Assembly (NCBI RefSeq): GCF_964204645.1
Contig: NC_134030.1
Span: forward strand, 20,775,110 to 20,839,109
DNA length: 64,000 bases
Origin: Tubulanus polymorphus
Taxonomy: Eukaryota; Nemertea; Palaeonemertea; Tubulaniformes; Tubulanidae
Reading direction: 5' to 3'
Of this stretch, positions 164 through 21,203 are shown in pieces; positions within the stretch are counted from its first letter, which is position 1; every line of letters starts with the position of its first letter. The translations under genes and the position numbers were made by a program. The notes under the pieces were generated by a model. That model was not told the DNA's origin. It saw only the letters and a list, made by a program, of their open reading frames with translations, and searched no databases.

Positions 164-664
164 CTAGCCTTTATAGCTCTCCTCGTAGGGTGTATAATCA
201 TAGCTCTCCTCGTAGGGTGTATAATCATAGCTCTCCTCGTAGGGTGTATAATCATAGCTCTCCCCATAGCCGTCATCATAGCTCTCCTCGTAGGGTTTAT
301 AATCATAGCTCTCCCCATAGCCGTCATCATAGCTCTCCTCGTAGGGTTTATAATCATAGCTCTCCCCATAGCCGTCATCATAGCTCTCCTCGTAGGGTGT
401 ATAATCATAGCGATAATCACTGTAATATCCTGTAAGGAAAATCCGCTCTTAATAAACGTAAAATTTAAGAGAATGAAATGGTTTCCTGGCTTTTAAACAT
501 TACTCTTGATTAATTACAATGAATCCGACTAATATGCGTTCTGCACACAGTTCGATCTTCTAGGCTCACCTTCGAGGGATTGAGAGTCTTTAAACGCGAT
601 ACTTACCTGGAGCGGCGGCAGCCACGGCCACAAGGGCCATCACGACAAGGAAAACTAACTTCAT
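164..664 (-). CDS. Gene A: secreted Tyr/Glu-rich repeat protein (107 aa, two coding exons)
   Basis: Exon with the start codon is 664-607 and the body exon is 429-164; the joined CDS is 324 nt and stays open to TAG. The first 19 residues (MKLVFLVVMALVAVAAAAP) form a signal peptide. The leader exon ends in phase 1 at a G|GTAAG donor and the body begins after TTTTCCTTACAG. The mature part is almost only Y, E, S, D, G, K, T and P, made of tandem YEESYDDGYGESYDYKP and YEESYDYTP units. It has no cysteine and ends in YEESYKG. A secreted structural or adhesive role is inferred from composition; no known family is recognised. The body lacks the Cys-containing ends of genes B and D, and its 3' end is fused to sequence matching the tail exon of gene B. 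Confidence 0.8.
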
Positions 665-764
665 CCTGTAGACAACAAGAAATATATTCCTTACACATTT
701 CCATTACATTTAGGCGTACACAACTAACGAATCGTACTAGCGACAAGAAACGTACGTAAGACGA

Positions 765-1012
765 CAGCGGCGGATCCAGGATTTCAGGGAGGGGTGCACA
801 AATTAGGCAGAGGGTCTGGGCGTCCTCCCCTAGAAATTTTTCAAAAATAAATGCGCGGAGACGCGTTCTAGACACGATTATAATACCGCAAATTGAATAG
901 CGATTTTACCCTAATTTCACTTCATTAGTTGTGGATAACAAATCCCTAAATAGCGAGAACTTTAGGAGGGGTGCACGCGTACCCTGTGCACCCCTGGACA
1001 CGCCGCTAAATA
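765..1012. mobile_element. hAT-like MITE in the gene A intron
   Basis: An insertion of about 245 bp relative to the matching intron of gene B. It begins CAGCGGCGGATCCAGG and ends CCTGGACACGCCGCT, an imperfect inverted pair. CAG-GGCGGATCC ends are common in hAT-type non-autonomous elements. A clean target duplication is not visible, so the class is tentative. Confidence 0.5.
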
Positions 1013-1122
1013 AGAAACAACTCACGCGAATTCGATCGGGTTTTCTGTACCCTGAATTTCGTTTAAATTGAAAATAGATTTCAGATGTAACAGTACAGGA
1101 TTCCACAATGACCAACACGTAC

Positions 1123-1160
1123 CTGATAATAACAGGGCGGCTCTTTTCCGAGATAAGACG
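1123..1160 (-). other. Gene A non-coding first exon (5'UTR)
   Basis: The region between a TATA box and a CAG|GTACGT donor at 1123/1122. It contains the block CTTTTCCGAGATAAGACG (plus-strand reading), which is repeated in the same place in genes B, C and D. The start is estimated from the TATA spacing and is approximate. Confidence 0.6.
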
Positions 1161-1181
1161 CTGATCTGTTTTCGAGTTTGG

Positions 1182-1188
1182 TTTTATA
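1182..1188 (-). promoter_or_regulatory. TATA box of gene A
   Basis: TATAAAA on the minus strand, about 30 nt before the conserved first-exon block. The same arrangement occurs before genes B, C and D. Confidence 0.6.
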
Positions 1189-1389
1189 CGCGTTTTGCGG
1201 GATATGAATCATTTCCACAGGTGAACTTAATTTCTTATTTTCAAGTATTGCATAATAGATTTTTTACGTTGAATTCGATCATAAATCTGTATTGTATCAC
1301 TTGCAACTGTCCTCTACCCGTAATCTATGTATGAATCGGCTAGACGATGACATAGTTCGAAGTCGCAAATTTGCATTCAATAAATATAA

Positions 1390-1600
1390 CATTCAAATCC
1401 ACGTTAGTGCTTTAGTAAGCGTTAAAGCTAGATTATAGTGAAACGCATTGTTCTTCATTACTAATGCATCCTCGCTTGCCAACCTCACTCGCAAACCATT
1501 CATCGGTCTATTGATGCCCCCAAAACATTGTGGGCGGCAACCTGTCCGCCCAGGAATTTTTGGCGTTACAGGAAAACTTGCGGCACAAAAGTTCAAGTTC
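1390..1600. repeat. Segmental-duplication edge upstream of gene A
   Basis: 1390-1480 matches 12170-12260 upstream of gene B, up to the shared CATCCTCGCTTGCCA. 1470-1600 is a diverged copy of the 12240-12600 repeat. Confidence 0.5.
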
Positions 1601-2079
1601 ATTCATTTCATAGAAGAGAACATACTATGTACATATATGCTACAATGTTTACAATTAGGCCTAGGGGATTGCCTGTATACAATCACTGAAGCAAATTTCA
1701 CGAATAAACTATATACAGGCCTAAACATCGTCACCCGTCAAGGGATTCGAACCCACTACGCTAAAGCTGTTCCCGAACCCCTATAGATCTCACGAGTCGT
1801 TGGAGTCGTTACTAGCCGACCAGAATCCAATCGTACCAATCACAGCGCTTGTAACAAACAACATGAGGCTTCTGTTTGTTTTCCCGTTCGGTTTTTCCGT
1901 TCCACTCAGACGCGAGGAATAAGTAACACCAACTATTCTAAGAAGTTGGAACGAAATTTAGTGATCGAACCAAAAATCAAGAAAAACAAGTCGTTTCGGG
2001 CGCGCTGTATATATTAGATCAATGCTAACGCGATTCGTAAAGAAACGTCGTGATTACATCGTGAGACACTGTCACGTTC

Positions 2080-2370
2080 CGCCTCACAGAGATTCGAACC
2101 TGATGACATCGAGAGACTTTGCTGCGTTCCGCCCTCACATGGTTTCGATCCTGATTACATCGTGAGACTTGGTCAAGTTCCTCCCTCGCAGGAATTCGAA
2201 CGTGATGACATCGAGAGCTCTGCGAGGTTCCTCCCTCGCAGGGATTCGATAGTGTTTCAATTGTGAAGTTCCACAGTTGTGTGGGTTTGATCTGACTCTT
2301 GACCCAATTCCACAGTTGTTTGGGTTTGATCTGACTCTTGACCCAGTTCCACAGTTGTGTTCAATTATTT
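2080..2370. repeat. tRNA B-box-like repeats and short tandem unit
   Basis: 2080-2250 has three diverged copies of a GATTCGAACCTGATGACATCG-like unit also seen at 13360, 28690, 45120, 48320 and 63600. 2262-2360 has three copies of a unit of about 50 bp containing CCACAGTTGTGTGGGTTTGATC. Confidence 0.5.
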
Positions 2371-2728
2371 CGATTTTCAAATACATGTAGTAATGAATTC
2401 AGTTCTCTTTCCATCACCAATATATTTACTGAACTGAACACGTTATGTAAATATTCGGCAGTTGAAAATGAAAATTTATCGCAGCGAAATCGACGTGTAT
2501 ATGTTTAACAAACGTCGGTAATTACTGGAAAATCGACTCGGATGAATAATTAAAAATCTTGCAAAACTGGATGAAAATTTGAAATATATCAGAAATAATT
2601 GCAGCAGCAACGAAAAATATCTATTTCAAAGAATTCGCTGCAAATTTTCTGATTGGACGAACTGTAATCTGTGTCGATTTCGTAAAGATATGCAAGTTTT
2701 GATTATTCAGTAGAGATTGTTGTTCGGT

Positions 2729-5700
2729 ATGGATCGACTGAGAGCGCTGTTTATAGCGTCGCTGATCGTCTGGCGAGTTAACATCGCACACGCTGATCTG
2801 TCTGACTCTGTGACGGTCAGTTCCTCTTGTAACAACAGTTGGTACCCCATCGATTCTACGTCCGGTTACATCGTTTCACCGAATTACCCGTCGTTTACGC
2901 GCGGTGTTGAATGTCGTTGGTTCGTCAACAGCTCTTTACCGGGAACTTTCAACATCGAACTATACTACGACATCGAGCCGTCGATATTCTGTAGTGATAA
3001 TTACCTTCTCGTCGGTGAGTCCGATAACAGATTCTGCGGCGAAGGAAAACACGAAATCCGCCGTAACGATTCGATGTCGTTGATGTTTAGAAGTAACGTC
3101 GATGGTGCGCGGGGTAGTCGGGTTTATATCATATATCGTTTAGAACGGAACAATTTGAAATTATTTCATAACTGCATGAAAACATTTCATAGAATAAACA
3201 AATTACAAACATCGACAGGATACAAATTCGCAATATATTTAAATCGTTGTCAATTGTATTTGGAATGGATCGGGATCCCAGATGGTTTTGCTATGAATTT
3301 TACGTTTACACGGATACATTTCAGATTATCTCCTGGCGCTGATTCTGCAACAACTGTTCAAATTTACGACGGATGGAACACCACCAGTGAACCTATAGCT
3401 GTTATACCAGAACAAACCGGGCATCCACCTTCATCGTTTTATACTAAAACTAACAATGCTATTTTCAGTTTGCAAACCCAAAGCATCAACTCACAACTAT
3501 CAGTTCAGGTGTATAGAATATCTGATTGGAACGTCTCTAATCCGTTAATTCAAATCTCTAATAACGAGTCGGGAGTGCTCATTCCTGATGACAACAGTTT
3601 ACACGTAATAACTCGATCAAAACACTTACACTGCTGGTCTATCACAGTGCAGGTGTTACAGTACGTCGTCTACAACTGGACACGTGATCTCAGCACACCC
3701 GGTGACGTCATCGGTGTATATAAACTAGAAGGGTTACGCGTTGTAGGAACTGATATTTTACTCGGTTACAACTACCTGGAATCACTGAGTGTTAAATCTG
3801 ACGGCTTTCTCGTCATACTGTGCGTTTTAATAAGACCAGGTGTTTTACAATCGAATGTAAAAATTGAATTTGAAGTAAAAGCTATTTCTATGGGAGACGT
3901 ACAAGTCCGCAAACCCAGGGTGAGTAAATTAGATGAAAGGTAACACATTTTTTGAACCACAGATAATAAAATGAAATAGGAAATGTGAAACATAGAAACA
4001 AAAATGCCAGAAATAATTCTAAAAGGACTTTTTATGGCACATATTAAAAATCCGATACGAAAAAAAGCTTGTCCCGGTTTTGGATAAGATGCTGTTTGTT
4101 AGATTCATTTCAACAACATCTTTTATGTTTTTAGAATATAGTCTTTTTTAAATGATGATTTATTTTGTAGATATCTGGCTTCGGTGCCACATTACCTTCG
4201 TTTGATATGTTCCCGTCAAAGAAGACAACATTTATGTACCGTATAAATACATACGAATTCAAACGGAAAGTTGATATCTATGAGAATGGATTGAAACTGA
4301 CAGTTTTATCAGAGACGTGCGAGAGAGCTGGATTTTATATATATGATGGTGGTAATTTTACAGCTAGACGCTATGGTCCGTATTGTCCTGGTCAGTGGTA
4401 CGATCATCACGTCGTCAGTCTGATTACATCAGGAGGACCGGTTACTGTAGTAGGGTACGCTTATAACTGGGACGATTGGGTCCCAGTGCGAGGAGTCGAT
4501 CGAATAGAGTCATTAACAAGAGGTTATCTCAGCTTCATCCCTTCTGACTGCAACGGGTATATTTTACGGGATGGAGAAAATCAGATCAATATGACGTCAC
4601 ACTGTCTGGTGATTACACCTGAAAACCGGCGCCTTCCTCTAGAAAATATAGATATATTATCAGAATATGAATATCAAATTGACGCGTGTCTTGTGCGATA
4701 CACGAGTAGATCATGTGACAGGCAAATGAGTTTATCAAATCAGTTTCTCAATAACAGTTTTGTATTAAACACTGTGAAATTGTTCTACAAATATCAATTC
4801 TGGAATGATAGATTGATAGTTAAACTACGTCGTAAATGTCAGGGAGCGAAAAAACCTTCACAATCTAAATCTGGTGTTTCATTTTTCCCGGATAGGGATG
4901 AATGTGGAATCGTACAATCACCGAACTATCCGGGATCAGCGGGATATACTTCGAAATCTTCTTATTATCGCTTTGAAAATCTGATTGAAAATGATCGAAT
5001 TCAATATTACAGATTTATAATCAAATTTATTCAGACTTTACCGTGCAATAAATTATCAAGATTTGACAAAGATCCAATTCTATTCAAACAACAAATACAT
5101 GACTTTTACGATAATGGAGTAGTTATTTCAGGAAGCGGAACCGAACATCAAACTAAAATATGCGGAACTATTGCTAAACGCGGAAGTGTATTTCATAGTT
5201 TGATCGACAATGATTTGCAATTTGAGATAAAGGATCTCGTTCCCACATTTCAAATACAATATAATTTTAAAAAGTCGTTACCAATAAAACAGTTTGATAA
5301 AATCGGCTGTAAACCAGGATTTCTAGATTCGGGAATTTCCTGCGTCAAATACATCAAAAATGAACGTCTGGATTGGGAGAACGCTGAAATGTACTGTCAA
5401 CACAAATACGGAGGACATCTTCTCAGTATCAACTCACAAGATGAAATGATTTCTGTCAAAAGATTATTCGCCACGAAACTGCTTAGAAAGGGATATACCC
5501 AGGAGGCGCTTATAATGATGATCGGGCTAAAATTCAAGGTAACTTACACTCGACAAATGATAAAAAAACATCGACATCGAATAGAACTCAAAGAGATTCC
5601 AAATTGATGTGTCATTTAATGGCATTAGAATATTTAAGTTTATATCACTTCTATATAGGACTTATGTTAATTTTCATGGTCTTGGTGAAAAATTTGAAAA

Positions 5701-8700
5701 TTCTCGAATTCTTTCTTTTCGGCCGAATATTGAAAAAGATCAATTTGGCATCCAGTCACTTAACACTCTTGCAAATCAAATATCTTTAAAATTATACGGA
5801 TTAACTTCAATAGATTAATTATGAAAATGGAAATAATGCATTTTTGCGGTCGATGAATGAATATGAATTAAATTTTAAACAGAATGATGGTTATTACACG
5901 TGGACTGATGGTAAACCATTGAGCTACACAGAGTGGTTTAAACCTGCTATGATAAACGAAACGATACCAGAAGTTATTCAAGGACTGATATCTCCTCTAC
6001 GAAAACAACCGATAAATGACGTCAATATGCCGTGTACGGCGATGATACTGAATAATCCACGAGGATCAGCGAACTGGGTTCGATTCCCGTGTCAAATCGA
6101 GGAGACTCGAACAACTTTCATTTGTGAATCGGATAGAATTGACGTCGATTCAGAACGCGTGGATAATTCGACAATTAAAATTCAAAATACAACGACTATC
6201 CTAGAAATAACTGATACTAATAACGATATCGCATTTCTAACAGGAAACAAAAATGATCTAAATTCCAATACATATAACTCGACTTGTAAAAAAGGCTGGC
6301 AAAATGTAGACGGCAAATGTTGCCAGATTCTCACCGATTGGAACAGCAATCGATGTTTGAATATTCGAAGTGCTACGCAATTGTGTCGTGACCTTCACGC
6401 TGAAATAGGTATTGTAACTTTCCATGTGGAAAATGATATAAAAGCATTAATTGATGAGTTTAGTTTTAAACACCAATATGGCGCTATACTGACTATGGGT
6501 GCGAGGAAATTGTTTCAAGTGATCGAACCAGTTTTGACACGGGATGAAATCACTTTTATCGAGTCGTTGAACTGGTCGATAAAACCATGGAATAATCTGA
6601 CAAACAACGTTCATTCCGTGCTATGTTCCTATAATGTAACTGATGAAGAGTTAGCTTCTATAAGCGGTTGTAAATCGTGGCAGTTTAAATGTAACGATCA
6701 ACGATGTATCAGCGACCATCGCGTATGTGATAACAGAAACGACTGTCAACACGGTGAAGATGAACTCGATTGTTCGGGTTTAAACTTACAAAGTCAGTTC
6801 CACTGTTCAGATGGACGGGTTATATCAATAAGTGGATTCTGTGATTTCATTAAGGATTGTTTGGATGGTTCTGATGAGAACTCGTGTATTCATCCCCCGT
6901 GTTTGCCCCAACAATTCCGCTGTACTAGTGGTCAATGTGTCGATAGATCGTACCGATGTGATGGAATCGTTAACTGTAAGGACGGCTCCGACGAGCGGGA
7001 GTGTGGTCCGCAACTTTGCAACGGGTTTCTGTGTAACAACGGTGAATGTATCAGTTCTCTATTGTATCGGGATGGTGTTGTAGATTGTAGCGGAAGCCTC
7101 GAAGAAGATGAACTTTTAACATCGAATGTAACAGTGAATCCTACTGTTCACTGTAATAGTGATAACTACTGTACGACTAATTTCACAAACCTTTGTACAG
7201 AATCTGATGAACAAAGATGTTCTTTCGATTCTCCTCATTGTTATTCTAGACGTCATAGATGTATTTTAGAAAGGATGCCGATTGGTTACCCGGTATGTAG
7301 AAGGCTCGAACATATACAAGGTTGTACTGATTTCAAATGTCCAGCTGGTACTGTTAAATGTCCAGCATCTTACTGTATACCGATGGGACAGGTGTGCGAT
7401 GGTCGATCAGATTGTCCTAATTCAGAAGACGAGCGAAACTGCGAGACTTTGTCGTGTCCCGGCATGTTCAAATGTGGCCAGGAAAACCGATGTATACCTC
7501 AATCTGAGGTTTGTGATGGTGTCACAAATTGTAAACATACCACTGATGACGAGTCTTACTGTGACGTCACGTGTCCTAAATACTGTAAATGTCAAGGTCA
7601 TTTAATTGATTGCGACGATGCTGGTTTAGTAGAAATTACTGATCTTTTCTCGGCATCAACTCGAGTTCTGATTTTATCAGAAAACCGAGTTGTATTCAAT
7701 GAGTCCACGTTTTCTTCTTACCTCTATCTACACCTTCTTAATATTTCACGTAACAATTTGTCTTATATTGTTCCAAACTCGTTCTCAAACCTGCATAATC
7801 TACATACATTAGATCTTACATATAATCGCTTAATATCATTGTCCGCGAATACATTCGCCGGTTTGTATAGTGTGAAAATACTTCTGATGTTTGGGAATCC
7901 AGTAAGATATTTAGAAGAAGGCAGTTTTCAAGGTTTAAAGTCATTAAGCGATCTCGATCTTCACGGACTTTCCTTGTCGTTACTCGTTGGAAATGTGTTC
8001 AGTCGTTTATCCGCTTTAGAGTCGTTAGATGTCAGCAATAACAGAATCAGTTATATTTCACCAAACGCATTTGTCGGATTAACAAAACTTAAAAGTCTGG
8101 ATCTAACCAAAAATTCAAAAGTCATATCCGTAGAAAAAAACGTTTTTGACAGTCTTACATTAATAAGTACCTTGGCTTCTGACGCGTACAAATTTTGTTG
8201 CATGGTTCCGAATGTTGACCAGTGTCTCCCGGAAGCCGACCAATTTTCATCTTGTTCCGACCTGATGGGTAACACTGTTCTTAGAGCAATCATTTGGGCG
8301 ATCGCTTCATTCAGCTTTTTTGCAAACATCACCGTAATTTTACTTCGCGTTCAAGCGTTACGCATTTCATCCTCTGAATCACGTAACACATCCTCTGATA
8401 TCCTAATCATTAATGTTGCCACCTGCGATTTTCTGATGTCGATTTATCTGTTTCTGATCGCAGGAGCCGATTACGTCTATAAAGGTGTTTATTTCCTAAA
8501 TTCTGAAAGTTGGACGGATAGTTCATTGTGTCGACTCGCTGGGATTATAGTGACTCTTTCCTGCGAGGGATCTTTGATTTTTCTCCTCATTCTTACCCGT
8601 CAAAGATACTCGAATATCGTCGATCCATTTTCTGCAAGCCCAATTATATCATCGAATTCTGTATCCGGGATTTGTTGCATATGTTGGATCAATTTAAGCA

Positions 8701-9179
8701 TCGTTTCAATGCTGCCGCTGTCGTCATCTTCTTATTTCGGAAATAACTTTTACGGCACAACTGGTGTTTGTCTACCTATGAATTTACTATCCATCAATGT
8801 CCACGCCTGGCAATACTCATTCGCTATATTTGCCGTGTTTAACTCGGTCGTACTTGCTACAATAATGATGACGTATGCACAGATGTATAGACTCGTATCT
8901 GGAAGCAGGTCCGGCTCGGGTAGAGCTGATCCTACCGAATTGGTTCTGGCGCGTAGGAGTTTAGTGATAAATCTGTGTAATCTATTTTGCTGGTTACCGA
9001 TAATTATCGTTCAGTTTTGCGCTGTATTGCGAGTAGAAATACCGAACCAAGTGGCGGCTTGGTTGGCGGTACTTTTCCTACCGATCAATTCGTCACTGAA
9101 TCCACTTCTTTACACAATCCTCACTATCGATGTTAAATCTATTCGGGCCAGAAATAAACGCGTTTTGAGAACCCGCTGA
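2729..9179 (+). CDS. GRL101-like receptor: CUB/C-type lectin/LDLa/LRR/7TM (1951 aa)
   Basis: Three exons: 2729-3919, 4171-5538 and 5883-9179, all phase 0, with donors AGG|GTGAGT and AAG|GTAACT. The joined CDS is 5856 nt. The N-terminus is a signal peptide (MDRLRALFIASLIVWRV). CUB-like domains lie at about aa 34-137 (SPNYPS) and 638-756 (SPNYPG), with degenerate ones between. A C-type lectin domain at about 777-933 is split by intron 2, and a degenerate second one lies at about 987-1110. Six LDLa repeats (CDGxxDCxxxSDE) occupy about 1116-1413, then a Cys-rich LRR cap, seven LRRs and a rhodopsin-like 7TM from about 1650. TM3 ends TRQRY in place of DRY; TM6 has FCWLP and TM7 NPLLY. This order matches snail GRL101 and other type C LGRs related to relaxin receptors. 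It is expected at the plasma membrane; the ligand is unknown. The cytoplasmic tail is very short. Confidence 0.9.
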
Positions 9180-9358
9180 AACATTCGTCAGTCGATATTA
9201 ACCTTGTCGAACTCTAATCAGAATATGAGAACATATCAGATGAAATCGATAAACATGAAGGAACTAATTGCGATGTAGTTCAATGCGGCGTTTAATCTTA
9301 TTTCACGTAAATTGATTGTAAATTCTTTTATGATTCACTTGTTCCGTTTTGTTGCATG

Positions 9359-9785: not shown

Positions 9786-9804
9786 AGAACGAGAATAAAG
9801 CTGA

Positions 9805-9975
9805 AAATCATTGGCAATTGAAGGATTCAATGACAGATGGTGTTGTCATTGAATAGTGTATTTGGTAATCACTCTCTACATCTCTACTTTTATCAATGAT
9901 TACCGATGACTGTTATACCGGTCATAAGAAAAGACATCAGGTGGAATTGCGACTTTAATTCGGGATACTCTAGCC
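9805..9975. repeat. Duplicate of the gene A 3' flank (window start)
   Basis: Nearly identical to 1-170. The match stops at the shared GGCTAG stop codon of gene A and of the tail exon at 9970-10147. Confidence 0.85.
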
Positions 9976-10147
9976 ACCATTGTGCCAATATCCATCGTTA
10001 AACAATGGTCGTGGAGGGATGAATCCGTAGTGTTGACCATGAGTGGAGTATGGAGTATATACATCCTTGTATCCACTTTTGTAGGTGTTCTTGCTGTAGG
10101 TGTCCTTTGCCTTATAGCTCTTGCCTTTATCGTAAGTCTCGCCGTAG
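9970..10147 (-). CDS. Lys/Tyr-rich tail exon of gene B (likely alternative last exon)
   Basis: Open from a TTTTTCTCTTC...ACAG acceptor (exon starts at 10147) to TAG at 9970-9972: 1 nt plus 58 codons and a stop. The frame reads YGETYDKGKSYKAKDTYSKN, then YKSGYKD and an aromatic/Pro end, closing HNGG. The phase-2 entry cannot follow the leader exon (phase 1). It does fit an AG|GTATGG site inside the gene B body exon at 10780/10779. That splice gives a 204-aa protein with SYGET at the join. The 19657-19882 exon is a clear homologue in the same frame, which supports coding. The splicing itself is inferred. Confidence 0.6.
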
Positions 10148-10733: not shown

Positions 10734-11679
10734 TTAGCAAGTAGGTGTCCCATTGTTACAGTAGACACCAGTGCCATACCTATCATCCTCGTAGCTTTCT
10801 CCATAGCCATCATCATAGCTCTCCTCGTAGCCATCATCATAGCTCTCCTCGTAGCCATCATCATAGCTCTCCTCGTAGCCGTCATAATTTTTCTCATAGC
10901 TTTCATCATAGCCAAAATTATAGCTTTCTTCTTCGTTACCATGACCATAGCTTTCACCATCATCATCGATCTCCCCGTAGCCATCATTGTAGCTTTTCTC
11001 GTAGCCATCATAATTTTCACCATAGCCTAAATTGTAGCTATCTTCTTCATAGCGGCTGTAGTCTTCTTCGTGATAGGTGCCTTCATTATCGTAAGCGGTG
11101 CAGTGGTCTCCACAATATTTCGGCGGATCAGTCGGATAGCGATAATCACTATAATATCCTGTAAGGAAAATCCGCTCTTAATAAACGTAAGATTTAAGAA
11201 TAAAATGGTTTCCTAGCTTTTAAACGTTACTCTTGATTAATTACAATGAGTCCGACTAATACGGCGGATCGTTCGGTTCATAGCGATAATCAGTATAGCC
11301 TGTAAGCAAAATTAGTCTTTAATTCTTAATACTTAGGGGCCAGTTGCACAGTCGTGACTTAAGTCCAAAAGTGGTCTTAAATCGTAAGACTGGTGTTAAG
11401 TTGTTAGATTGGCTATAGAACTAAGTTGGTCTTAGACTGGTCTTAAGTCTAAGCCATGACTATGAAACCGGCCCTAGGAGTTAAGAGAATATGATGGTTT
11501 TCTAGATTTTAAACAATTCTCTTGGTAACAAATGAGTCCAACGAATACACGTTTTCCACGTAGTTAGATCGTCCCGATTGCTAGGACCTTTTGAGAAATT
11601 GCGAGTACACGCAATACTTACCTGGAGCGGCGGCAGCCACGGCCACAAGGGCCATCATGACAAGGAAAACTAACTTCAT
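10734..11679 (-). CDS. Gene B: secreted Tyr-rich protein with four cysteines (160 aa)
   Basis: The leader exon is 11679-11622 (signal peptide MKLVFLVMMALVAVAAAAP, donor G|GTAAG) and the body exon 11158-10734; the CDS is 483 nt, in frame. The body exon has no ATG. It starts GYYSDYRYPTDPPKYCGDHC, followed by Tyr/Glu/Gly/Asp repeats such as YEESYDDG and YGESYEDD, and ends in CNNGTPTC. Two cysteines near each end could pair across the repeat block. The leader, 5'UTR and both ends of the body match gene D. An extracellular structural, adhesive or matrix role is inferred only from the signal peptide and composition. An internal AG|GTATGG donor may link to the 9970-10147 exon. Confidence 0.8.
11256..11299 (-). 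pseudogene. Truncated gene D-type body exon inside gene B
   Basis: A complete GCTTACAG acceptor followed by YTDYRYEPNDPPY and an immediate TAG. The sequence matches the start of the gene D body exon and breaks off into gene A/B-type intron sequence. It lies between the gene B leader and body exons, so it is a leftover of recombination. If used, it would give leader plus 14 residues (33 aa, in frame). Confidence 0.65.
11336..11475. mobile_element. GGGGCCGGTTGCA-type MITE in gene B intron
   Basis: Ends GGGGCCAGTTGCACAGTC and CATGACTATGAAACCGGCCC are inverted. The interior has GACTGGTCTTAAGT blocks. It is the same family as the four copies at 57998-58583. Confidence 0.65.
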
Positions 11680-11903
11680 CCTGTAGACAACAAGAAACAA
11701 GAACATATTCCCAACATATTTTTACCATATTCAGTACGTACGCAACAACCGAATCGTACAAGCGATAAGAAAGGTACGTAATATGAGGAACAATTTACGC
11801 ATAATTCGATCGAATTTTCTGTACGCCGAAATTCGTTTTGATTGTGAATAGATTTCAGATGTAACAGCACAGGATTCCACAATTAACCAACAGACACACG
11901 TAC

Positions 11904-11940
11904 CTGATAATAACAGGGCGGCTCTTTTCCGAGATAAGAC
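11904..11940 (-). other. Gene B non-coding first exon (5'UTR)
   Basis: Ends at a CAG|GTACGT donor (11904/11903) and carries the CTTTTCCGAGATAAGACG block shared by genes A, C and D. The start is estimated from the TATA box. Confidence 0.6.
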
Positions 11941-11962
11941 GCTGATCTGTTTTCGAGTTTGG

Positions 11963-11969
11963 TTTTATA
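11963..11969 (-). promoter_or_regulatory. TATA box of gene B
   Basis: TATAAAA on the minus strand in a promoter nearly identical to that of gene A. Confidence 0.6.
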
Positions 11970-12239
11970 CGCGTTTTGGAGGGATATGAATCATTTCCAC
12001 AGGTGAAATTAATTTCTTATTTTCAAGTATTGTATAATACATCTTTTTACGTTGAATTCGATCATAAATCTGTATTGTATCACTTGCAACTGTCCTCTAC
12101 CCGTAATCTATGTATGAATCGGTAGGCGACGACATAGTTCGATGTCGCTGAAGTTGCCGCTGAATGAAATATAACATTCAAATCCATGTTAGAACTTCAG
12201 TTTGCGTTAACGATTTCAGTAAAACGTATTGATCTTCAT

Positions 12240-12600
12240 TACTAATGCATCCTCGCTTGCCAGGGTTTGATTGCCGCCCGCCTAGCTCACGCCAACACAA
12301 ACCCTGGCCGCAAAACCTTAATTGGTCTATTACACCGCCCAAGATTTCTTGGGTGGGCAGGTTGCGGCCCGTCGCCACCACGTCTACGTATATGTCAAGC
12401 CAATCAGATGCATTTTTTCACCATCCTCGCTTGCCAGGGTCTGATTGCCGCCCGCTGTGAGCTCATGCCTATGCAAACCCTCGCCGCAAACCCTTCATTG
12501 GTCTATTTCACCACCCACGATTTCTTTGGAGGACGGGTTCCCGCTCAGCGCCCGCCAGTCTATATATCTAACCAATCAAATGCGTTTTTACCGGCACGAC
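12240..12600. repeat. Two-copy repeat of about 175 bp
   Basis: Units begin CATCCTCGCTTGCCAGGG and contain GGTCTATT and AAGATTTCTT/ACGATTTCTT with GC-rich flanks. A diverged third copy is at 1470-1600. Confidence 0.6.
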
Positions 12601-12659
12601 GTTTGCCCTATAAATACCACGTATCTGATAGGCTAGATAAATAGACCGAGCGAGAACCA

Positions 12660-13440
12660 TGGCAAGCGAGGATGTTTTTCGCCGGTAGATTCGTAGACTG
12701 GTCGCCTGTCCAATTCTGCGCTACCTGCATTCGCAGTTTGAATAGTCTAACTGAAGGTAGAGACCGGTGACCAGTCTAGTAGATTCGTTCAATACAACGC
12801 AGCTGATTGGCTAGATATAAAGACTGGTGGCCGCTGATTATCTGCTCACAACTCGTCGAGTTGGTACGAACTATGATCTGGAAAAAGTTTCTGGTCCTGA
12901 AAGTCCTGAAAATCGTTGTAATGCACCATGTTATGCTCATTGATGGTAGACGAGTGTGAAATTGGATATCTTCAATCAATGAGGATTTCGTGCCAACAGC
13001 TATCCCGCTAGATGGCGTGCGTAACAGTGCGACAACCCCGTCAAAATCTGGTTCATTCTCAATGAACTTTCATCTAGATTTTTAGCCTCCCTCATCAGAA
13101 ATTAGGCAAATCTTTATAAACTCAGATGATCTTTAGCTAGTTCATATATAAGGTGGATTTTTACTAATCATCATTCAAAGAATTTGAGAAATTATGGATA
13201 GACTTTAATTGAATATGAGAAGAAATCCGGGAGTCGTTGTCTGAATGCACACTAGCGAACCTGGTGGATCCTCGCTTGCCACATTCGAACGTAGGGGTGC
13301 GTACGGCTACTTCGGTTTTGTCTATAGAGCTTGCCGAAAGCTGCTTACATCCTACCTAGACTGGAATCGAACCCGATGGCATCGAGACTCGCCACGGTAC
13401 GAACACCTGCCACACTAGCCCAGGTGCCCAGCTATACACA
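12660..13440. other. Gene-free stretch with foldback and tRNA-like remnants
   Basis: 12685-12785 has inverted GACTGGTCGCC / GGTGACCAGTC ends. 13345-13400 has the GGAATCGAACCCGATGGCATCG motif of the foldback family. 13262 carries a half unit of the 77-bp repeat. No exon is supported. Confidence 0.4.
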
Positions 13441-13899
13441 GGATGATGGCGGTGACGATGAGGACGGACGCGAGACCTGAAGTAAATAGACATGGCGTCA
13501 CAGGACCTGGTTCCGTGTGTACACTAGACAGCAGAACGATTGCACACGCGCTCACAACTTCGCTTGAGAAACAAAACATTTCACCATTTCTTTCAAGATT
13601 GCACCAGTGGAATCGTATTTTTTCAACAGACCCTATCACGTAACACCATATTAAACAAGATTGCAAAAAAAATTAGGCCGTTGGGACTAATCCGGGAATG
13701 CTCAACTACATGCGCTGAACCGGCTGATTTACTATATGCTGAATTTCGACAAAACCTTGGCATCATACAGTATCAATGGTACACGTGGGCGAAGTGTCAT
13801 ATTTATTAGAAACAAAAGCTACAACAATATCTACCTACGCCGGTTAAAAAGACATTACTGACACCTGCCGGTCAAATGATTAATCATCCTGTTTTACCG

Positions 13900-13906
13900 T
13901 ATAAAA
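13900..13906 (+). promoter_or_regulatory. TATA box of the Gly/Arg/Tyr peptide gene
   Basis: TATAAAA 67 nt before the ATG, placing transcription start near 13930. Confidence 0.55.
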
Positions 13907-13966
13907 ACACTCACAAAGATACAACGATCAATTTACTGATAAAAACAAGAAGCTCGTGAACTAACA

Positions 13967-14519
13967 ATGCTCAGGTAAGTGCACGGGGAGCTATCACAAT
14001 TTTTTCATTTCTAACTCGGGCGAGCTTTAACGTAGACGCAGGGCCCGGTTATTTGTTCTATTTTCACCAAAACGTTTGCCTCATAGCACCACAGTATAAG
14101 TCGCGTGATAAGTTCCATAGTTCAGTGCAATTCGAGTTCAATCGCAAATATGGTCATTTAAACCTACAGCGCTCAAATCTAACTGAACTGTATATGGAAT
14201 TGGATCCTCGTAGTAGGATAAACAAAATATATTTTCGTTTTTTTTTTTATACAGAATTAAGTTGTTCGCCATTTTGCTGGTATTGTTGATTGTTCTTGTG
14301 GTTGCAACCTCCGCTTGTAAGTTACATTAATATATGTGCCAGCTCTCCCCTTCCCCGAAAACCGGATTCTAACAGTTCGACGCAATTGAAATTTCAGTCT
14401 TCAGAGGCTTTGGGGGTTATAGAGGTGGTTATAGAGGTGGTTACGGGCGGCCGTATGGCTATGGTGGTTATAGAGGTGGTTACGGACGGCCGTATGGCTA
14501 TGGTGGATACAGAGGCTGA
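13967..14519 (+). CDS. Secreted Gly/Arg/Tyr-rich small peptide (63 aa, three exons)
   Basis: Exons 13967-13974 (ATGCTCAG|GTAAGT), 14255-14316 (after TTTTTTTTTATACAG, ending at T|GTAAGT) and 14398-14519 (after ATTTCAG, ending TGA). The joined CDS is exactly 192 nt. Residues 1-23 (MLRIKLFAILLVLLIVLVV then ATSA) are a strong signal peptide. The mature peptide is tandem GGYRGGY and GRPYGYGGYRG units. It resembles the general class of GGY/GRY secreted peptides found in cuticles, shells and antimicrobial families; which of these applies cannot be told. It lies on the opposite strand between genes B and C. The leader sequence is unrelated to that of genes A-D. Confidence 0.75.
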
Positions 14520-14559
14520 TTTATTTACATGATATTTCATTCCGTCGGATAAACGTCAT

Positions 14560-15140
14560 TCTTAATGTTTAGGAAAATTATTTCTTGATGTATGAATTCA
14601 TTGTTTAAATTTTGTTATCTCGAATGCTTCAATTATCATAACGGTTGTGTCAACGTGTAAACCTGGAACAACTACAACGTGTGCAGGATCTATCGTATAA
14701 TACAATAGCCTATTTCTCAAGAAGTTCATTTGTTTCTTCCTTTTTGTCTTTCAATACAGTCTTATGTGTAGCTTTGAGCCAGGTTTTTATGAATCGACTT
14801 CACCCGAAATGAACACTGGCATAATCTCATAAGAAATCAGAGTTTGTAACCTAAGCCCATTTTAAAAGATTTAGTCGATGTACCAGGTATTGCAGGATTT
14901 CACGCAAGCGACGATCGATGATCAATATCATGCACAGTGATTAGCATGGGAAGAGTCTTTAGCTCAATTCCAACCATAACTTGACCAAATTTTGAAGTCG
15001 AAGCGCAAACTACTAACAGAGTATGCTAGGCTCTGGTGGTCATTGCTCCTGAAGGGCTGACCGGTAAGATCTCCCGGATTTATTTGCGATAACGAACAAA
15101 ATGAAAACGAAAGCAACAAAACGTCTATATTTTCAAGAGG
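14560..15140. other. Spacer without recognised gene
   Basis: AT-rich sequence between the peptide gene and the gene C poly(A) site. No repeats or splice-framed ORFs were recognised. Confidence 0.4.
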
Positions 15141-15141
15141 T

Positions 15142-15147
15142 TTTATT
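15142..15147 (-). terminator. Polyadenylation signal of gene C
   Basis: AATAAA on the minus strand, about 60 nt after the gene C stop codon. Confidence 0.6.
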
Positions 15148-15205
15148 ACGGTATCCTGATGACGACTACAAATCAAGTGTGTACAGTCGGTACATTGACA
15201 GAAGA

Positions 15206-16527
15206 TCAATAGTAGTTGCCGAAGCCTCCGTATCCGTACTTGTTGTTGTACTTGTTGTTGTACTTGGCGTACTTGGCGCGGTACTTAGCTAACTTTTTGG
15301 CGAGTTTTTCCGCCTGCTTTCTGGCGTACTTTTCGTACTTGTACCTGTACTTGTCATTGCCATATTTGCTGTACTTGCTATATTTGTCGTAATCATCATC
15401 ATAGCTGTTTTCATAACCGCTATAACCTCCATCGCACTCATAGCCTCCACAAGACGGAGCGACATAAGCATCTTCGTCATAATAATCGTTCTCTTCATAA
15501 CCTATAAACAAAGGTTGAGTACATCAGAAATGCATCCACGATTTTAGACATCGTTAGGGGAATACAGTTGAACCTCGGTTATAGTACGATTCGGCTTACA
15601 ACGAAAACCTCAGTAATTCGATGAATCTAAAAATTCCCATTTTCCCATAAAAATATTTGCTTGTTACGATCGTATGGTGGCCGATAAGGGCCATAGCGTA
15701 AAATTCCTGGTATGTAAATGAGGGCGCCAGAACGCCAAAACGAAAAAAAAAACGTCCAATTTTCTCTGAAAGTTCCGTTTTGGCGCCCCCGTTTTGTTAC
15801 ATAATCAATTCCCCTTTTTTTAAGTTGGTCCCGTACAAATTGTTTATGCGCCGTCTGACCTATACATTAAAAATGCATAAAAAGGATCCACTGACTGGTG
15901 GCGCGGTCACCTGAGACATTTTAAATTGAAAATGAACTACAAACACCAGATATTAGACATTTTATCAGCACACTTTCAAAAACTGATCGTCCACACTTCA
16001 CATGTGTTCAGTGCTTCACCTGAGACATTTCTAATTGAAAATGAACTACAAACACCAGATATTAGACATTTTATCAGCACACTTTCAAAAACTGATCGTC
16101 CACACTTCACATGTGTTCAGTGCTTCACCTGAGACATTTCTAATTGAAAATGAACTACAAACACCAGATATTAGACATTTTATCAGCACACTTTCAAAAA
16201 CTGATCATCCACACTTCACATGTGTTCAGTGCTTCACCTGAGACATTTTTAATTGAAAATGAACTACAAACACCAGACATTAGATATTTTATCGGAATAC
16301 TTTCAAAAACTGATAGCTGAGACTCGACAGTGGCTCCAGTCTGCATATATGCCCTCATCCGGCGTTCAAAGTGTAGACTTTTTTCATATCTAATTATGGT
16401 TAATGAAGATTTATTTGTATATAAAACATATATATGATGGACAAAACCTAATATCTAAACATCACTTACCTCTACCAGCGATAGCCAAGGCCACAAGGGC
16501 CATCATGACAAGGAAAACTAACTTCAT
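15206..16527 (-). CDS. Gene C: secreted Tyr/Lys-rich protein (117 aa)
   Basis: The leader exon is 16527-16470 (MKLVFLVMMALVALAIAGR, donor G|GTAAGT) and the body exon 15501-15206, entered in phase 1; the CDS is 354 nt. The body opens acidic and Tyr-rich (GYEENDYYDEDAY), has two cysteines (PSCGGYECDGG), then YDKYSKYSKYG. It turns strongly basic with KYARKQAEKLAKKLAKYR, KYNNKYNNKY and a GGFGNYY end. The acidic-to-basic switch and Tyr/Lys content suit a cross-linking extracellular matrix or adhesive protein, by inference. The leader exon and first-exon block match genes A, B and D while the body is unrelated. The intron carries a 109-bp minisatellite. Confidence 0.8.
15571..15660. mobile_element. 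Possible pogo/Tigger-like element end
   Basis: TA followed by CAGTTGAACCTCGGTTATAG, similar to the starts of the 71-bp arrays at 21473 and 47238. Only one end is recognised. Confidence 0.35.
15909..16314. repeat. 109-bp minisatellite, array 1 (gene C intron)
   Basis: About 3.7 near-identical units beginning ACCTGAGACATTTCTAATTG and containing AACTACAAACACCAGATATT and CACACTTCACATGTGTTCAG. Confidence 0.9.
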
Positions 16528-16712
16528 CCTGCAAACAACAAGAAACAAACTCTCTACACGCAGGAATAGAATATACGATTTTGAAACTGATTTTCATTTG
16601 CTTATTTCCGTCGAAAGGACCAGTTTTGTTCACGAAAGCTGATGATGAATAGCTGATTCTGAATTTATTCGGTATAATTCTAAAATGCGCATTACACTAA
16701 CTCCACACTGAC

Positions 16713-16752
16713 CTGAAGCTTGAAGGACCGGTTCTTTTCCGAGATAAGACGT
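16713..16752 (-). other. Gene C non-coding first exon (5'UTR)
   Basis: Ends at CAG|GTCAGT (16713/16712) and holds the CTTTTCCGAGATAAGACG block found in genes A, B and D. The surrounding promoter has otherwise diverged. Confidence 0.55.
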
Positions 16753-16773
16753 CAAGTTGGATTTCATGATGGT

Positions 16774-16780
16774 TTATATA
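16774..16780 (-). promoter_or_regulatory. TATA box of gene C
   Basis: TATATAA on the minus strand, about 25 nt before the conserved first-exon block. Confidence 0.55.
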
Positions 16781-16989
16781 CTTATACTGAGACACAAATC
16801 ACTCCAGCAGGTGTCATTTATATGCTTTTTAATGTGACAGCAATTCATCTTTTCCGTAAAATCACTAACACTTGTCTACTGTAGGTCCGTTTGCTATGTG
16901 TCTCAAGCATAAGGTATTTTATTAACCTGCAATAAAACTGGAGACATCGAACGTCAACGCACCGGAACTTGAGATTCAGTGGACGCTCG

Positions 16990-17490
16990 TCGAGTTCATT
17001 TTCAGTTACTTCAACTCTACAGTCAAAATCAGTTCATTTTCGATTACTTTAAGTCTACATTCAAAATCAGTCCATTTTCAATTACTTTAAGTCTACATTC
17101 AAAATCAGTCCATTTTCAATTACTTCAACTCTACATTCAAAATCAGTCCATTTTCAATTACTTAAACTCTACAGTCAAAATCAGTTCATTTTCAGTTACT
17201 TCAACTCTATATTCAAAATCAGTCCATTTTCAATTACTTAAACTCTACAGTCAAAATCAGTCCATTTTCAATTACTTAAGATCAACAGTCAAAATTCGTT
17301 CATTTTCAATTACTTGAATTCTACAGTCAAATTCAGTTCATTTTCAGTTACTTCAACTCTTTATTCAAAATCAGTCCATTTTCAATTACTTTAGATCAAC
17401 AGTCAAAATCAGTTCATTTTCAATTACTTGAATTCTGCAGTCAAAACCTGTTCATTTTCAACTTTTACGGACAAAACGAGCTTATTTTCA
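16990..17490. repeat. 38-bp minisatellite
   Basis: About 13 units of AATTACTTCAACTCTACAGTC plus AAAATCAGTCCATTTTC with scattered substitutions. Confidence 0.85.
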
Positions 17491-17905
17491 ATTACATGTA
17501 CAACAATTACGTTCTAGGGTTGAATTTTCAACGTGGACCAATAGATCAACAGGACAATGTAGTAATTTGTCATCAAACTCTTCATCGTAAACATAATGAA
17601 CATATAAGACACGTGCTTCCTTGCATGAGATATCAACAACATATGGGGCCAATATTGTACCAGATCAACAATGTTGGCATGAATGCCTCTTGTTAATTCA
17701 TAGTTACACCAATGTTATTCGAAAATCATTGTTTCCAAAATCATCGTATCTAATCATTGTGCCCACGTTGTTTGCGTTATGGGTGGTTTTATTCGACGGT
17801 AGTGATTAGAGCTTGACATATTCCGGTTACGACATATGTGATAAGATAAAAACCTACTACTAATTAAAAGAATCTAAAAAAAAAGAAATTTATTTCAATA
17901 ATCAA

Positions 17906-18030
<125 letters not shown>

Positions 18031-18069
18031 AAGACCCGACGTTACGAACTCTCAATATATATCATGATC

Positions 18070-18310
18070 GTCAGACCAGGGAAAGTTTGAGACTTCGAAA
18101 TCAATTTTCTAGCTTCTGGTACGATAACCACACTCAAACGTGGTGAACGGATAAAAAGATTAAAACCCACTATTTACAGATTAAAAGAATTTAAAATCAA
18201 GAATTTATTTATTCGAACAATCTAAAATACATGAAATACGCGACGTTTCGATCTCACCCTAGAGATCATCGTCAGGTGTGAGGTGTCAGGTGTGACCTGA
18301 CGATGATCTC
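18070..18310. repeat. Inverted GAGATCATCGTCAG motif
   Basis: CACCCTAGAGATCATCGTCAGG at 18256 is followed by CCTGACGATGATCTCTAGGGTG at 18296, giving a short perfect hairpin of about 60 bp. The flanks are unremarkable. Confidence 0.6.
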
Positions 18311-18328
18311 TAGGGTGCGACATATGTG

Positions 18329-18510
18329 ACTGGTCACCGCAGCTAAGTGGCCACCACACTGACCTATCAAACGTTTTAACCTAATCTGTTGGTTAGTGCA
18401 TTTGTCTATCAGATGGTCGCCCCGGGTTCGATACCTGACTTTTTAAATCCTTCCTAATGGCTTTTTCCCTCCCTTTTGAGAATGACTTTTGGTATTAAAA
18501 TCTTCTTTTT
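18329..18510. mobile_element. tRNA-derived SINE-like copy
   Basis: GTTGGTTAGTGCA and GGGTTCGATACC are close to RNA polymerase III A and B boxes, spaced as in tRNA-derived SINEs. The copy is homologous to 9605-9785. Confidence 0.55.
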
Positions 18511-18519
18511 GCTTCTCCT

Positions 18520-19300
18520 TTACTTGGACGATTTGCGAAACAAAAGAATGACATGAAAAGAAATTAATAAGATTAAGTTGAAAATCATATCGTTCTTGAC
18601 AAGGAACTGTTGTAGTCAGATAATGACAGATCTAAACCTCATTCTTTTTCATTGTCTTTTCTATCCTTTTGTTGTTTTTATCTATCTTCTTTTTTTCTTT
18701 TCAAGGGTGCTTGCTTGAGCAGCCCTTTGGCCTTCTCTTGGACTTCATACGAAAGCCTTCTCAATTTCATTCTTGTTCTGTTTGCAAATTATCTTATAAC
18801 ATACTCAATGAAAAAAATTGAAATTCAATTGAAATTGAAAGACGATATTTTTATTGAATAGCACACATTTGTTAATCAGTCAATCGGACTACTGTGAGCT
18901 GCGTTCACACCACCACTAGTTGATTACTTAGACCGGTCCAAATGGTTCCGTACCTGGAACGAGCCAAATTTGGAACGGACGAAATCAGTGTGCGGTCACG
19001 CACGCGTCGCTAATAAGCTACGTAGAGTTATGATTTGCCCCGCAAGATGTCGCCGTGGGTATTCTAATCCGTGAAAACATTTTTAATTTCAACTCATGGC
19101 TATCTAGATATTCTAAAAAATCCTACAATCAACTTTGCAAAATACATCAAAAAAGGTCTCCCTCTATATACCATAGAAATGGTTGGAGTGTAAATTTCCT
19201 AATCCTAATCCCGAGGTAAACATTTATATGATAGATTAATGAGTCCATGTCTGCTATTTATCTTACAAATTGTGATGACTGCAGTTGATTCTTATATCCG
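18520..19300. other. Gene-free AT-rich stretch
   Basis: No splice-framed coding sequence or clear repeat was recognised. Confidence 0.35.
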
Positions 19301-19317
19301 GAGACATCAATCTATCG

Positions 19318-19440
19318 TAAAACAAACCATACCAATCAATACCATCACAATCTATGGGATGTATATACCAATCAATACCTTCACAATCTACGGGATGTAT
19401 ATACCAATCAATACCATCACAATCTATGGGTTCTATTGAC
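19318..19440. repeat. 39-bp tandem repeat, three copies
   Basis: ATACCAATCAATACCATCAC followed by AATCTATGGGATGTAT, repeated three times. Confidence 0.8.
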
Positions 19441-19626
19441 AGTGCTATGACTGTTATAACAAGAAAAATGTTTGAAGACATCAGGAGAAATTGCAGTTCT
19501 GATTCAGGAGTCGCCCTTTTAGACCCTATGAACAATTTTCTACCACTCATTTTCTTGGACCTCTTACCAGAGAAAAAACAAACAATAAAACGAAAATAAA
19601 GTCTATTTTCTACGATAGTTTTATGA

Positions 19627-19632
19627 TTTATT
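19627..19632 (-). terminator. Polyadenylation signal after the gene D tail exon
   Basis: AATAAA on the minus strand 25 nt after the TGA of the 19657-19882 exon. It supports that exon being a true last exon. Confidence 0.55.
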
Positions 19633-19656
19633 TCTACTTCAGGACAAGGACAGTGA

Positions 19657-19882
19657 TCAGTAGTGATAACGGTGTCCGTGGTAACGCGGGTAAGCATGAC
19701 CGCCGTGGTAATATCCACCGCCAAAGAATGGAGGAGGCGCGATGAATCCGTATTGTGGACCATGGGCGTGGTACGGAGCATATCCATCCTTGTATCCACT
19801 TTTGTAGGTGTTCTTGGTGTAGGTGTCCTTTGCCTTATAACCTTTGTCTTTGCCATAACTGTCTTCGTAACTCTCTTTGTAG
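19657..19882 (-). CDS. Lys/Tyr/Gly/His-rich tail exon of gene D (likely alternative last exon)
   Basis: It begins after CTATTTTCTTTTCTTTCAAACAAAAACAG, a good acceptor, and runs 1 nt plus 74 codons to TGA. It reads YKESYEDSYGKDKGYKAKDT, then TYKSGYKDGYAPY and a Gly/His/Tyr tail ending HRYHY. The first half aligns closely with the 9970-10147 exon; the tail is longer and His-rich. Its phase-2 entry matches an AG|GTATGG site in the gene D body exon (20435/20434), giving a 182-aa protein that replaces the Cys-containing end. Coding status is well supported by the paralogue; the splice is inferred. Confidence 0.6.
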
Positions 19883-20388
19883 CTGTTTTTGTTTGAAAGA
19901 AAAGAAAATAGTACTAAAATGTGTAATCATTAGTCAGTTTATACTGTGTCGTTTCACATTACAGTACACTGATCGAGGAGCCATGTCTTAGTCCAGAAGA
20001 CTAGTATTAATCTAGACTATTCACGAGGTTGTTACATCGGTTATAGAGAATCAGCTTAGACTGGTCTAGAATTGATAGTTTGGTTGAACCAAAATGAGCT
20101 TAGACAGGTCTCAACTTGTTACTTTTGTTATAGAAACAAGTGGCCCTGGTCAGATTGGTTAGAGAACCCAGTAGAACTGAAATGTACTCAGACTGGTGTT
20201 CAAATCGCAGAACTAGCTCCGCAGCTGGCAAAATGGTTCTTGTCTACCGTTTGCCACGGTAACGCCACATGAAATAAGTTGTGGAAACAAACTTTGGTTC
20301 ATAAATGTAAAAAAGGGATCGCGTTTTGACTGAGCCCTGATAGTACCGGTATTTATATACTACCTAGAAGTCTAATATTTGCTAAGCT

Positions 20389-20930
20389 TTAGCAAGTAGG
20401 TGTCCCATTGTTACAGAAGACACCAGTGCCATACCTATCATCCTCATAGCTTTCTCCATAGCCATCATCATAGCTCTCCTCGTAGCCATCATCATAGCTC
20501 TCCTCGTAGCCATCATCATGGCTTTCCTCGTAGTCATCATAGTTTTTCTCATAGCTTTCACCATAGCCATCATCATAGCTATCTTCTTCTGAGCCGTTGT
20601 AGTCTTCATCGTAATAGGTGCCTTCATCGTCGTATGAGGTGCAGTGGTCTCCACAATATTTCGGTGGATCGTTCGGTTCATAGCGATAATCAGTATACTC
20701 TGTAAGCAAAATGAGCAGCGTCTTAATACGTTAGAGTTAAGAGAATTAAGTGGTTTCCCAGATTTTAAACATTCCTCTTAGTAACCAATGAGTCCAACAA
20801 TTACACGTTTTCCATGCGAAGTTCGATCCTCTAAACTCACTTTGAGAAATTGGGAGTACACGCAATACTTACTGTAACTGGCGGCAGCCACGGCTACAAG
20901 AGCCATCATGACAAGGAAAACTAACTTCAT
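20389..20930 (-). CDS. Gene D: secreted Tyr-rich protein with four cysteines (122 aa)
   Basis: The leader exon is 20930-20873 (MKLVFLVMMALVAVAAASY, donor A|GTAAGT) and the body exon 20699-20389, entered in phase 1; the CDS is 369 nt, in frame. The body reads YTDYRYEPNDPPKYCGDHC, then acidic Tyr/Glu/Asp repeats (YEESYDDG three times in varied form), and ends CNNGTPTC. It is the closest relative of gene B and lacks B's central expansion (EIDDDGESYGHGNEEE). A secreted structural or matrix role is inferred from composition. The internal AG|GTATGG site may splice to the 19657-19882 exon. Confidence 0.8.
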
Positions 20931-21136
20931 CCTGTAGACAACAAGAAACATATTCCCTACACATTTTTACCATATTCAGTACGTACGCAACAACCGAATC
21001 GTACAAGCGATAAGAAAGGTGCTGAACAATTAACGCATGTTCGATCGAGTTTTCTGTACGCCGAAATTCGTTTTGATTGTGAATAGATTTCAGATGTAAC
21101 AGTACAGGATTCCACAATTAACCAACAGACACGTAC

Positions 21137-21175
21137 CTGATACTAACAGGGCGGCTCTTTTCCGAGATAAGACGC
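21137..21175 (-). other. Gene D non-coding first exon (5'UTR)
   Basis: Ends at CAG|GTACGT (21137/21136) and contains the shared CTTTTCCGAGATAAGACG block. The start is estimated from the TATA box. Confidence 0.6.
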
Positions 21176-21196
21176 TGAACGGTTTTCGTGTTTGGT

Positions 21197-21203
21197 TTAT
21201 ATA
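21197..21203 (-). promoter_or_regulatory. TATA box of gene D
   Basis: TATATAA on the minus strand. The flanking promoter is highly similar to that of gene B. Confidence 0.6.

Follow-up and report, generated by a model that had tools for sequence, protein, structure and literature searches.

A 147-kb tandem array of 20 predicted genes for secreted, tyrosine-rich proteins in the nemertean Tubulanus polymorphus, with a conserved promoter and leader exon ahead of diverging bodies

The window analysed here is a stretch of 64,000 nucleotides (nt) from the nemertean Tubulanus polymorphus (contig NC_134030.1, here C6, positions 20775110-20839109) in which four genes, A to D, were predicted on the reverse strand, each with a short leader exon encoding a signal peptide followed by a tyrosine-rich body. 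The first-pass annotation of this stretch had counted four genes with a common promoter and leader, and these are present where it placed them, but the true count is 20. Genes A-D lie at the right-hand edge of an array that spans 147 kb and comprises 20 predicted genes. Twelve (G1-G12) are on the forward strand, followed by eight on the reverse strand (G13-G20), with A corresponding to G17, B to G18, C to G19 and D to G20. The gene models were built from splice consensus and open frames, and the genome searched comprises 267.8 Mb in 77 contigs, 12 of them large. Judged from sequence, the probability that A-D are part of a single array that arose by tandem duplication and codes for secreted, Tyr-rich structural proteins of low complexity, with promoter and leader under constraint and the repeats turning over fast, is about three in four. 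As such the array is probably a tandemly copied family for extracellular structural material. With 20 models in 147 kb it is a tandem cluster of secreted repeat-containing genes, secretion being judged from the leader sequence.

The leader is specific to this locus. A 28-nt leader pattern searched with up to three mismatches gave 20 matches in the genome, all at C6:20,649,522-20,796,039 and none elsewhere, with no match for the reversed-pattern control; 19 of the 20 agree with the degenerate pattern without mismatch and one with a single mismatch, counts of repeats in this search being lower bounds. A looser 21-nt pattern (up to two mismatches) gave 1070 matches against 528 in its control and is useful for exact matches only, while a leader pattern with AAA as codon 2 had no match in the genome. 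The same confinement is seen for the 18-bp block GTCTTATCTCGGAAAAGA of the promoter, the exact 18-mer occurring five times in the 267.8 Mb with every copy inside the array, which rules out chance likeness. Allowing one mismatch gave eight matches, seven of them in the array (reversed-pattern control, one), and all 17 matches to the block with up to two mismatches lie inside the array. Of the matches with exactly three mismatches, three are inside the array and 32 outside it; the reversed-pattern control gave 18 in all (up to three mismatches), and the excess of the 32 is due in part to identical repeated strings among them. Within a 204-kb region searched with up to four mismatches there were 24 matches, of which 20, with three mismatches or fewer, sit 112-496 nt upstream of a leader and account for all 20 leaders. 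The remaining four have four mismatches each and no leader, three of them having the same surroundings and coming from copies of a neighbouring receptor gene described below.

The presence of a TATA box and a common 18-bp block in a predicted non-coding first exon was confirmed for genes A-D, in which the block is exact (window positions 1142-1159 in A, 11923-11940 in B, 16733-16750 in C and 21156-21173 in D, all on the reverse strand, as are the other parts of these genes given below). The block starts 29-30 nt past the start of the TATA box (1183-1188, 11964-11969, 16775-16780 and 21198-21203, respectively), approximately at the expected transcription start. In an alignment of the 20 promoters, counted by eye, every gene has a TATA-like box ahead of the block, and 17 have TGATTCAT upstream of the TATA box, those without it being G8, G12 and G19. 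The motif CTTATCT within the block is the reverse complement of what we take to be a putative GATA-type site. A tree of the promoter and leader grouped G4-G7 (support 0.999), G10 with G11 (1.000) and G13-G18 with G20 (0.969). All 20 genes retain the whole arrangement of a TATA-like box, a conserved block of some 20 bp close to the expected transcription start, and a phase-1 leader exon. The shared promoter and signal-peptide unit reported ahead of differing Tyr-rich bodies is real and occurs 20 times. Two tandem repeats lie nearby, one of 71 bp in nine copies just upstream of gene D (window 21466-22103) and one of 38 bp in 12.3 copies upstream of gene C (window 16993-17461).

The leader exons of A (MKLVFLVVMALVAVAAAAP; 607-665), B (11622-11680), C (16470-16528) and D (20873-20931) are each 59 nt long, with 58 coding nt and phase 1 at the end. 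The earlier description of a 58-nt exon always ending in phase 1 holds for the phase in all 20 models; the exon itself is one nt longer in A-D, and the coding part is 58 nt in 14 models and 52 nt in six. A GT stands at the alternative donor position in seven of the 14 longer leaders and one of the six shorter ones, giving phase 1 either way. A phase-1 intron close to the signal-peptide cleavage site is described as common (PMC1626468).

Codons 2-13 of the leader are nearly invariant across the 20 genes, with the exception of codon 8. Among 12 representatives (the close copies G5-G7, G11 and G13-G16 being dropped), mean identity was 0.92 over leader nt 1-40 (0.25 when shuffled), 0.59 over the rest of the leader (0.27) and 0.56 over the promoter (0.21), falling to 0.20 in intron 1 (0.15), 0.18 in intron 2 (0.12) and 0.19 in the DNA 200-500 nt upstream (0.19). 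It could be argued that leader identity is maintained by gene conversion among copies rather than by selection, given that 20 copies lie within 147 kb and that some units are 93-97% identical, so that the array is dynamic. This is quite improbable, since conservation breaks off where the leader exon begins and fades past about codon 13, the introns being no more or little more alike than shuffled sequence, and repeated conversion tracts with identical edges and without flanking homology would be unlikely.

The conservation extends to silent sites. At four-fold boxes in codons 2-13, third bases were identical at 363 of 421 (0.86), while 0.28-0.42 would be expected from body codon usage (0.50 for CTN, for which there were only two codons) and 0.27-0.32 from three long open reading frames (ORFs) of the window. 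Leu3 is TTA, Val4 GTT and Val7 GTC in all 20 genes. Since TTA makes up only 16% of Leu codons in the three long ORFs and silent identity exceeds expectation, the leader codons are frozen by position rather than by a general preference. Position-specific codon conservation was reportedly described by Conticello et al. in 2000. Codon conservation may also be a by-product of amino-acid conservation and shared ancestry, as has been cautioned (PMC3823881); within this one genome, introns at or near random similarity argue that silent leader sites have had time to diverge. A tentative possibility, which we favour less than not, is that the leader exon is doubly coded, specifying the signal peptide and at the same time a control element of about 40 nt acting at the DNA or RNA level, such as a transcription-factor site, a splicing enhancer, an export or translation signal or a small-RNA target, that would work with the promoter block on the 20 structural genes as a unit. 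Double coding would explain both the silent positions frozen despite intron turnover and the use of one promoter family for acidic and basic chains. Pairing of the 5′ block with the leader into an RNA stem was considered and is unsupported, random synonymous leaders pairing equally strongly with the block. At least as strong a pairing was reached by 1112 of 2000 such leaders drawn with local codon usage and 991 of 2000 with uniform codons, while 286 of 2000 shuffled blocks reached the pairing of the real consensus with the leader; similar pairing was seen in most of the 12 representatives and in some of the 20 minimum-free-energy folds. The most unexpected aspect of the finding is the codon-frozen leader.

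An open Tyr-rich body can be joined to each of the 20 leaders at a GT/AG pair, giving predicted proteins of 77-601 aa including the leader, and all 20 body exons begin in the same splice phase. Tyr makes up 15-31% of the mature part across the 20 predictions, and net charge is negative in 18, with G2 and gene C (G19) basic overall. Most bodies consist of Gly/Tyr/Asp/Glu repeats, and in nine of the 20 (G3-G11) the motif YGRS joins a Gly/Tyr repeat to a tail that varies by group. The YGRS junction and the uniform splice phase fit divergence in place. Motifs of the form XGnX (X = I, L, V or Y) number at least five in eight bodies (G1, G3, G4, G5, G7, G8, G10 and G11) and one to four in a further six, with none in G13-G17 and G20.

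Conserved signals ahead of variable bodies are also the pattern of toxin superfamilies (PMC4029134), and the bodies might be read as a secreted, hypervariable repertoire that serves defence or is akin to a venom, of the kind known from cone snails and spiders. The conotoxin and spider Shiva superfamilies likewise combine a conserved signal with a variable mature part, and the codon-level conservation reported for them in the material available concerns the cysteines (PMC4029134, PMC3823881). Their bodies, however, are short, disulfide-rich peptides, whereas here no cysteine scaffold is seen, 16 of the 20 main predictions having no Cys at all (one in G7, two in G19 and four each in G18 and G20), and most bodies are Gly/Tyr/Asp/Glu repeats reaching 601 aa with the leader. 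A venom-like repertoire is therefore very unlikely.

In genes B and D a further predicted last exon had been missed that gives each gene a second, basic C-terminus. In B the body exon runs to an alternative donor (10780-11158); retention of the last intron adds an end with YGTGVYCNNGTPTC and a stop (10734-10779), while splicing leads to a predicted alternative last exon that is Tyr/Lys-rich and basic (9970-10147). Gene D has the same layout, with the body to the alternative donor at 20435-20699, the retained-intron end at 20389-20434 and a predicted alternative last exon, basic and rich in Tyr, Lys and His, at 19657-19882. Both genes have a common donor (AG/GTATGG, mediocre) and acceptor (AACAG/CTAC) into this in-frame exon. 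The last exons taken alone are basic (pI about 9), while the whole spliced B and D proteins remain acidic. Over aligned sites B and D are 86% identical in the body part and 77% in the last exon, for which dN was 0.22 and dS 0.34 on a short sequence. The retained end is identical at 45 of 46 nt, against 65% for the rest of that intron, which together with 20 intact leaders followed by open bodies of 77-601 aa in total makes it extremely unlikely that the array is largely decayed and unexpressed. What could suggest decay is an in-frame stop within the Tyr repeats of G13 (C6:20735551), which cuts the predicted protein to 77 aa. On the reverse strand 3′ of G13 lies a Tyr-rich open frame without a leader that may be the remnant of a last exon (C6:20724445-20724655). 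The body exon of gene A (164-429) carries YDYTPYEESYDDGYGES-type repeats and ends in a stop at 164; as this stop and the 3′ flank align with the end of the last exon of gene B, A perhaps lost the intervening part and may be a deletion product.

Gene C was the case for which sharing of little beyond the leader parts had been noted. Its body (15206-15501), acidic and then basic with Tyr/Lys, is indeed near shuffled level, although a marginal likeness to spliced B and D exists and its acidic-then-basic layout is like that of B and D when the missed last exon is spliced in. Body comparisons were tested against 500 composition shuffles, of which 23 reached the real score with spliced G20, 22 with spliced G18 and 80 with unspliced G20, so that similarity to spliced B/D is only marginally above shuffles; the numbers for other partners were 104 (G9), 154 (G12), 184 (G17), 302 (G1) and 355 (G2). 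With each of the 19 other genes, the 420 nt upstream of gene C outscore the best of 30 shuffles, most strongly with G12 (96 against a shuffle maximum of 25) and only marginally with G13 and G17 (27 against 25 and 24), in which the block lies more than 420 nt from the leader. The second intron of gene C contains a 109-bp repeat in 3.7 copies (window 15907-16314).

For the other basic protein, G2, the comparison with G1 beat all 500 shuffles, though shuffling also breaks the Gly-Tyr alternation, while the scores with G3, G19 and G20 were reached by 413, 412 and 80 of 500 shuffles. Three results weigh against the reading as one tandemly duplicated family: the homology of the gene C body to the others appears unconvincing, G2 rises above shuffles in one of four comparisons (G1 only), and a Pfam scan of G2, G19 and G20 found no family in the first two and two matches below cut-off in G20.

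These results bear on the proposal that promoter and leader are a mobile or shuffled module that acquires new body exons, at least in gene C and possibly in G2. A gene C body near shuffled level behind an upstream region related to the other genes is what such capture would produce, and so is a leader conserved while the introns are not. The unit, however, was found inside one array only by both the leader and the block searches, splice phase is uniform in all 20 models, and gene C can be likened in layout to B and D and G2 in sequence to G1, within the limits given above; repeat proteins are also able to diverge fast without capture. We consider capture unlikely. Of the module as first described, what stands is that the unit heads 20 differing bodies, while capture is unneeded for the nine genes with the YGRS junction.

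For the three proteins scanned against Pfam the statement that no described family is recognised stands, although the kind of array has been described. The open-access literature, most subscription papers lying outside the search, contained neither of two full leader strings and none of three repeat strings, and the seven-letter MKLVFLV turned up only in unrelated papers in the texts accessible. The nearest described case is that of the Hydractinia clusters, likewise tandem clusters of secreted repeat proteins, in which shematrin-like/Prisilkin-like genes for Gly-rich repeat proteins form a tandem cluster of nine (seven with a predicted signal peptide) with eight more nearby, most of the first cluster being expressed in one, stolon-enriched cell type (PMC11876637). 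As far as that account goes, the T. polymorphus array differs in having 20 genes, a common core promoter, a codon-frozen leader and strongly acidic Tyr/Asp/Glu repeats, and the A-type bodies G13-G17 lack XGnX motifs. Molluscan shematrins and lysine-rich mantle proteins (KRMPs) are also described as secreted proteins of low complexity whose duplicated families evolve fast and are lineage-specific, and gene C, set beside the KRMPs by description, is likewise Tyr/Lys-rich (PMC4897951). Of the shematrin layout of a signal peptide followed by XGnX repeats, the leader is present in all 20 genes and at least five of the motifs in eight. The array proteins differ from shematrins in being mostly acidic.

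Shematrins end in a basic Arg/Lys-Tyr C-terminal motif. In contrast, a basic run followed by Tyr was found in the last 12 residues of none of the 20 array C-termini. In the cement of sabellariid tube worms, too, secreted Gly/Tyr-rich and basic proteins occur together with a partner that is strongly acidic, but by description the basic proteins there are Pc-1 and Pc-2, and Pc-3, the acidic one, is phosphoserine-rich (PMC12621633), whereas here the Gly/Tyr proteins are themselves acidic through Asp/Glu. The basic Gly-rich repeats with DOPA of the sabellariid type are not the rule here, 18 of the 20 main predictions being net acidic. By analogy, shematrins, KRMPs and sabellariid cement may be functional counterparts of the array, and the best reading is that it would be of the kind already known from shematrins and the Hydractinia clusters, in which secreted structural proteins undergo tandem duplication and fast repeat turnover.

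Between genes A and B lies a receptor gene that is not of the Tyr-rich family (window 2729-9179, forward strand), one of six tandem copies. In the one copy scanned, CUB, LDLa, LRR and rhodopsin-type seven-transmembrane domains exceed the Pfam cut-offs, with a C-type lectin domain below cut-off. Together with the A-type genes, the six forward-strand copies form alternating units of roughly 10 kb, and gene B closes the last of these. Identity is 93-97% among units U2-U6 (U2-U5 with G14-G17, U6 with B) and 87-88% between U1 (with G13) and the rest; the high identity among U2-U6 makes recent duplication visible. Five further receptor copies lie upstream (C6:20.727-20.774 Mb), and one of them (20737557-20738772) has a stop that divides its first part among the listed ORFs. 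Elsewhere in the window a small further secreted gene is predicted on the forward strand (13967-14519; MLRIKLFAILLVLLIVLVVATSAFFRGFGGYRGG...), Gly/Arg/Tyr-rich and with its own phase-1 signal exon encoding a different leader, and a search of Rfam at the gathering cut-off reported nothing in the window. A 1977-codon open frame lies on the forward strand between G11 and G12 (C6:20700304-20706235), and on another contig two exact copies of a miR-1992 20-mer occur within 300 bp (C1:25379119-25379415). Genome-wide these are the only two exact matches to that 20-mer, with four more at 1 mismatch (control, 1), while a miR-1990 20-mer had no match with up to 1 mismatch and a search for the COX1 family gave nothing. 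A let-7 20-mer occurs once, but at its locus Rfam, at the gathering cut-off, reported a mir-10 family member and no let-7. The microRNA matches hint, with low certainty, at a lophotrochozoan.

In the proposed mechanism tandem duplication would spread the gene, after which internal repeats would expand, contract and be deleted, so that the bodies come to differ, while promoter and leader would be held by purifying selection. The shared promoter would co-express the 20 genes in one secretory tissue, and it is reasonable to suppose that such co-expression serves an extracellular material. The signal peptide would export the proteins, which could then cross-link through their Tyr residues and, for B, C and D, through Cys as well, with the many acidic proteins associating with the few basic chains provided by G2, the basic half of C and the alternative ends of B and D. 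The result would be a cohesive extracellular material, for instance a tube, cuticle, cement or periostracum-like layer. A role in cross-linked extracellular material is suggested by composition and analogy, the tissue and the type of material being guesses. The array offers a clean natural example of a constant promoter and leader with diverging bodies in a fast-evolving structural protein family, and the freezing of silent sites provides a direct and cheap test of whether signal-peptide exons also serve for control at the nucleotide level. Should the products build one material, its acidic and basic components would be found listed at this one locus.

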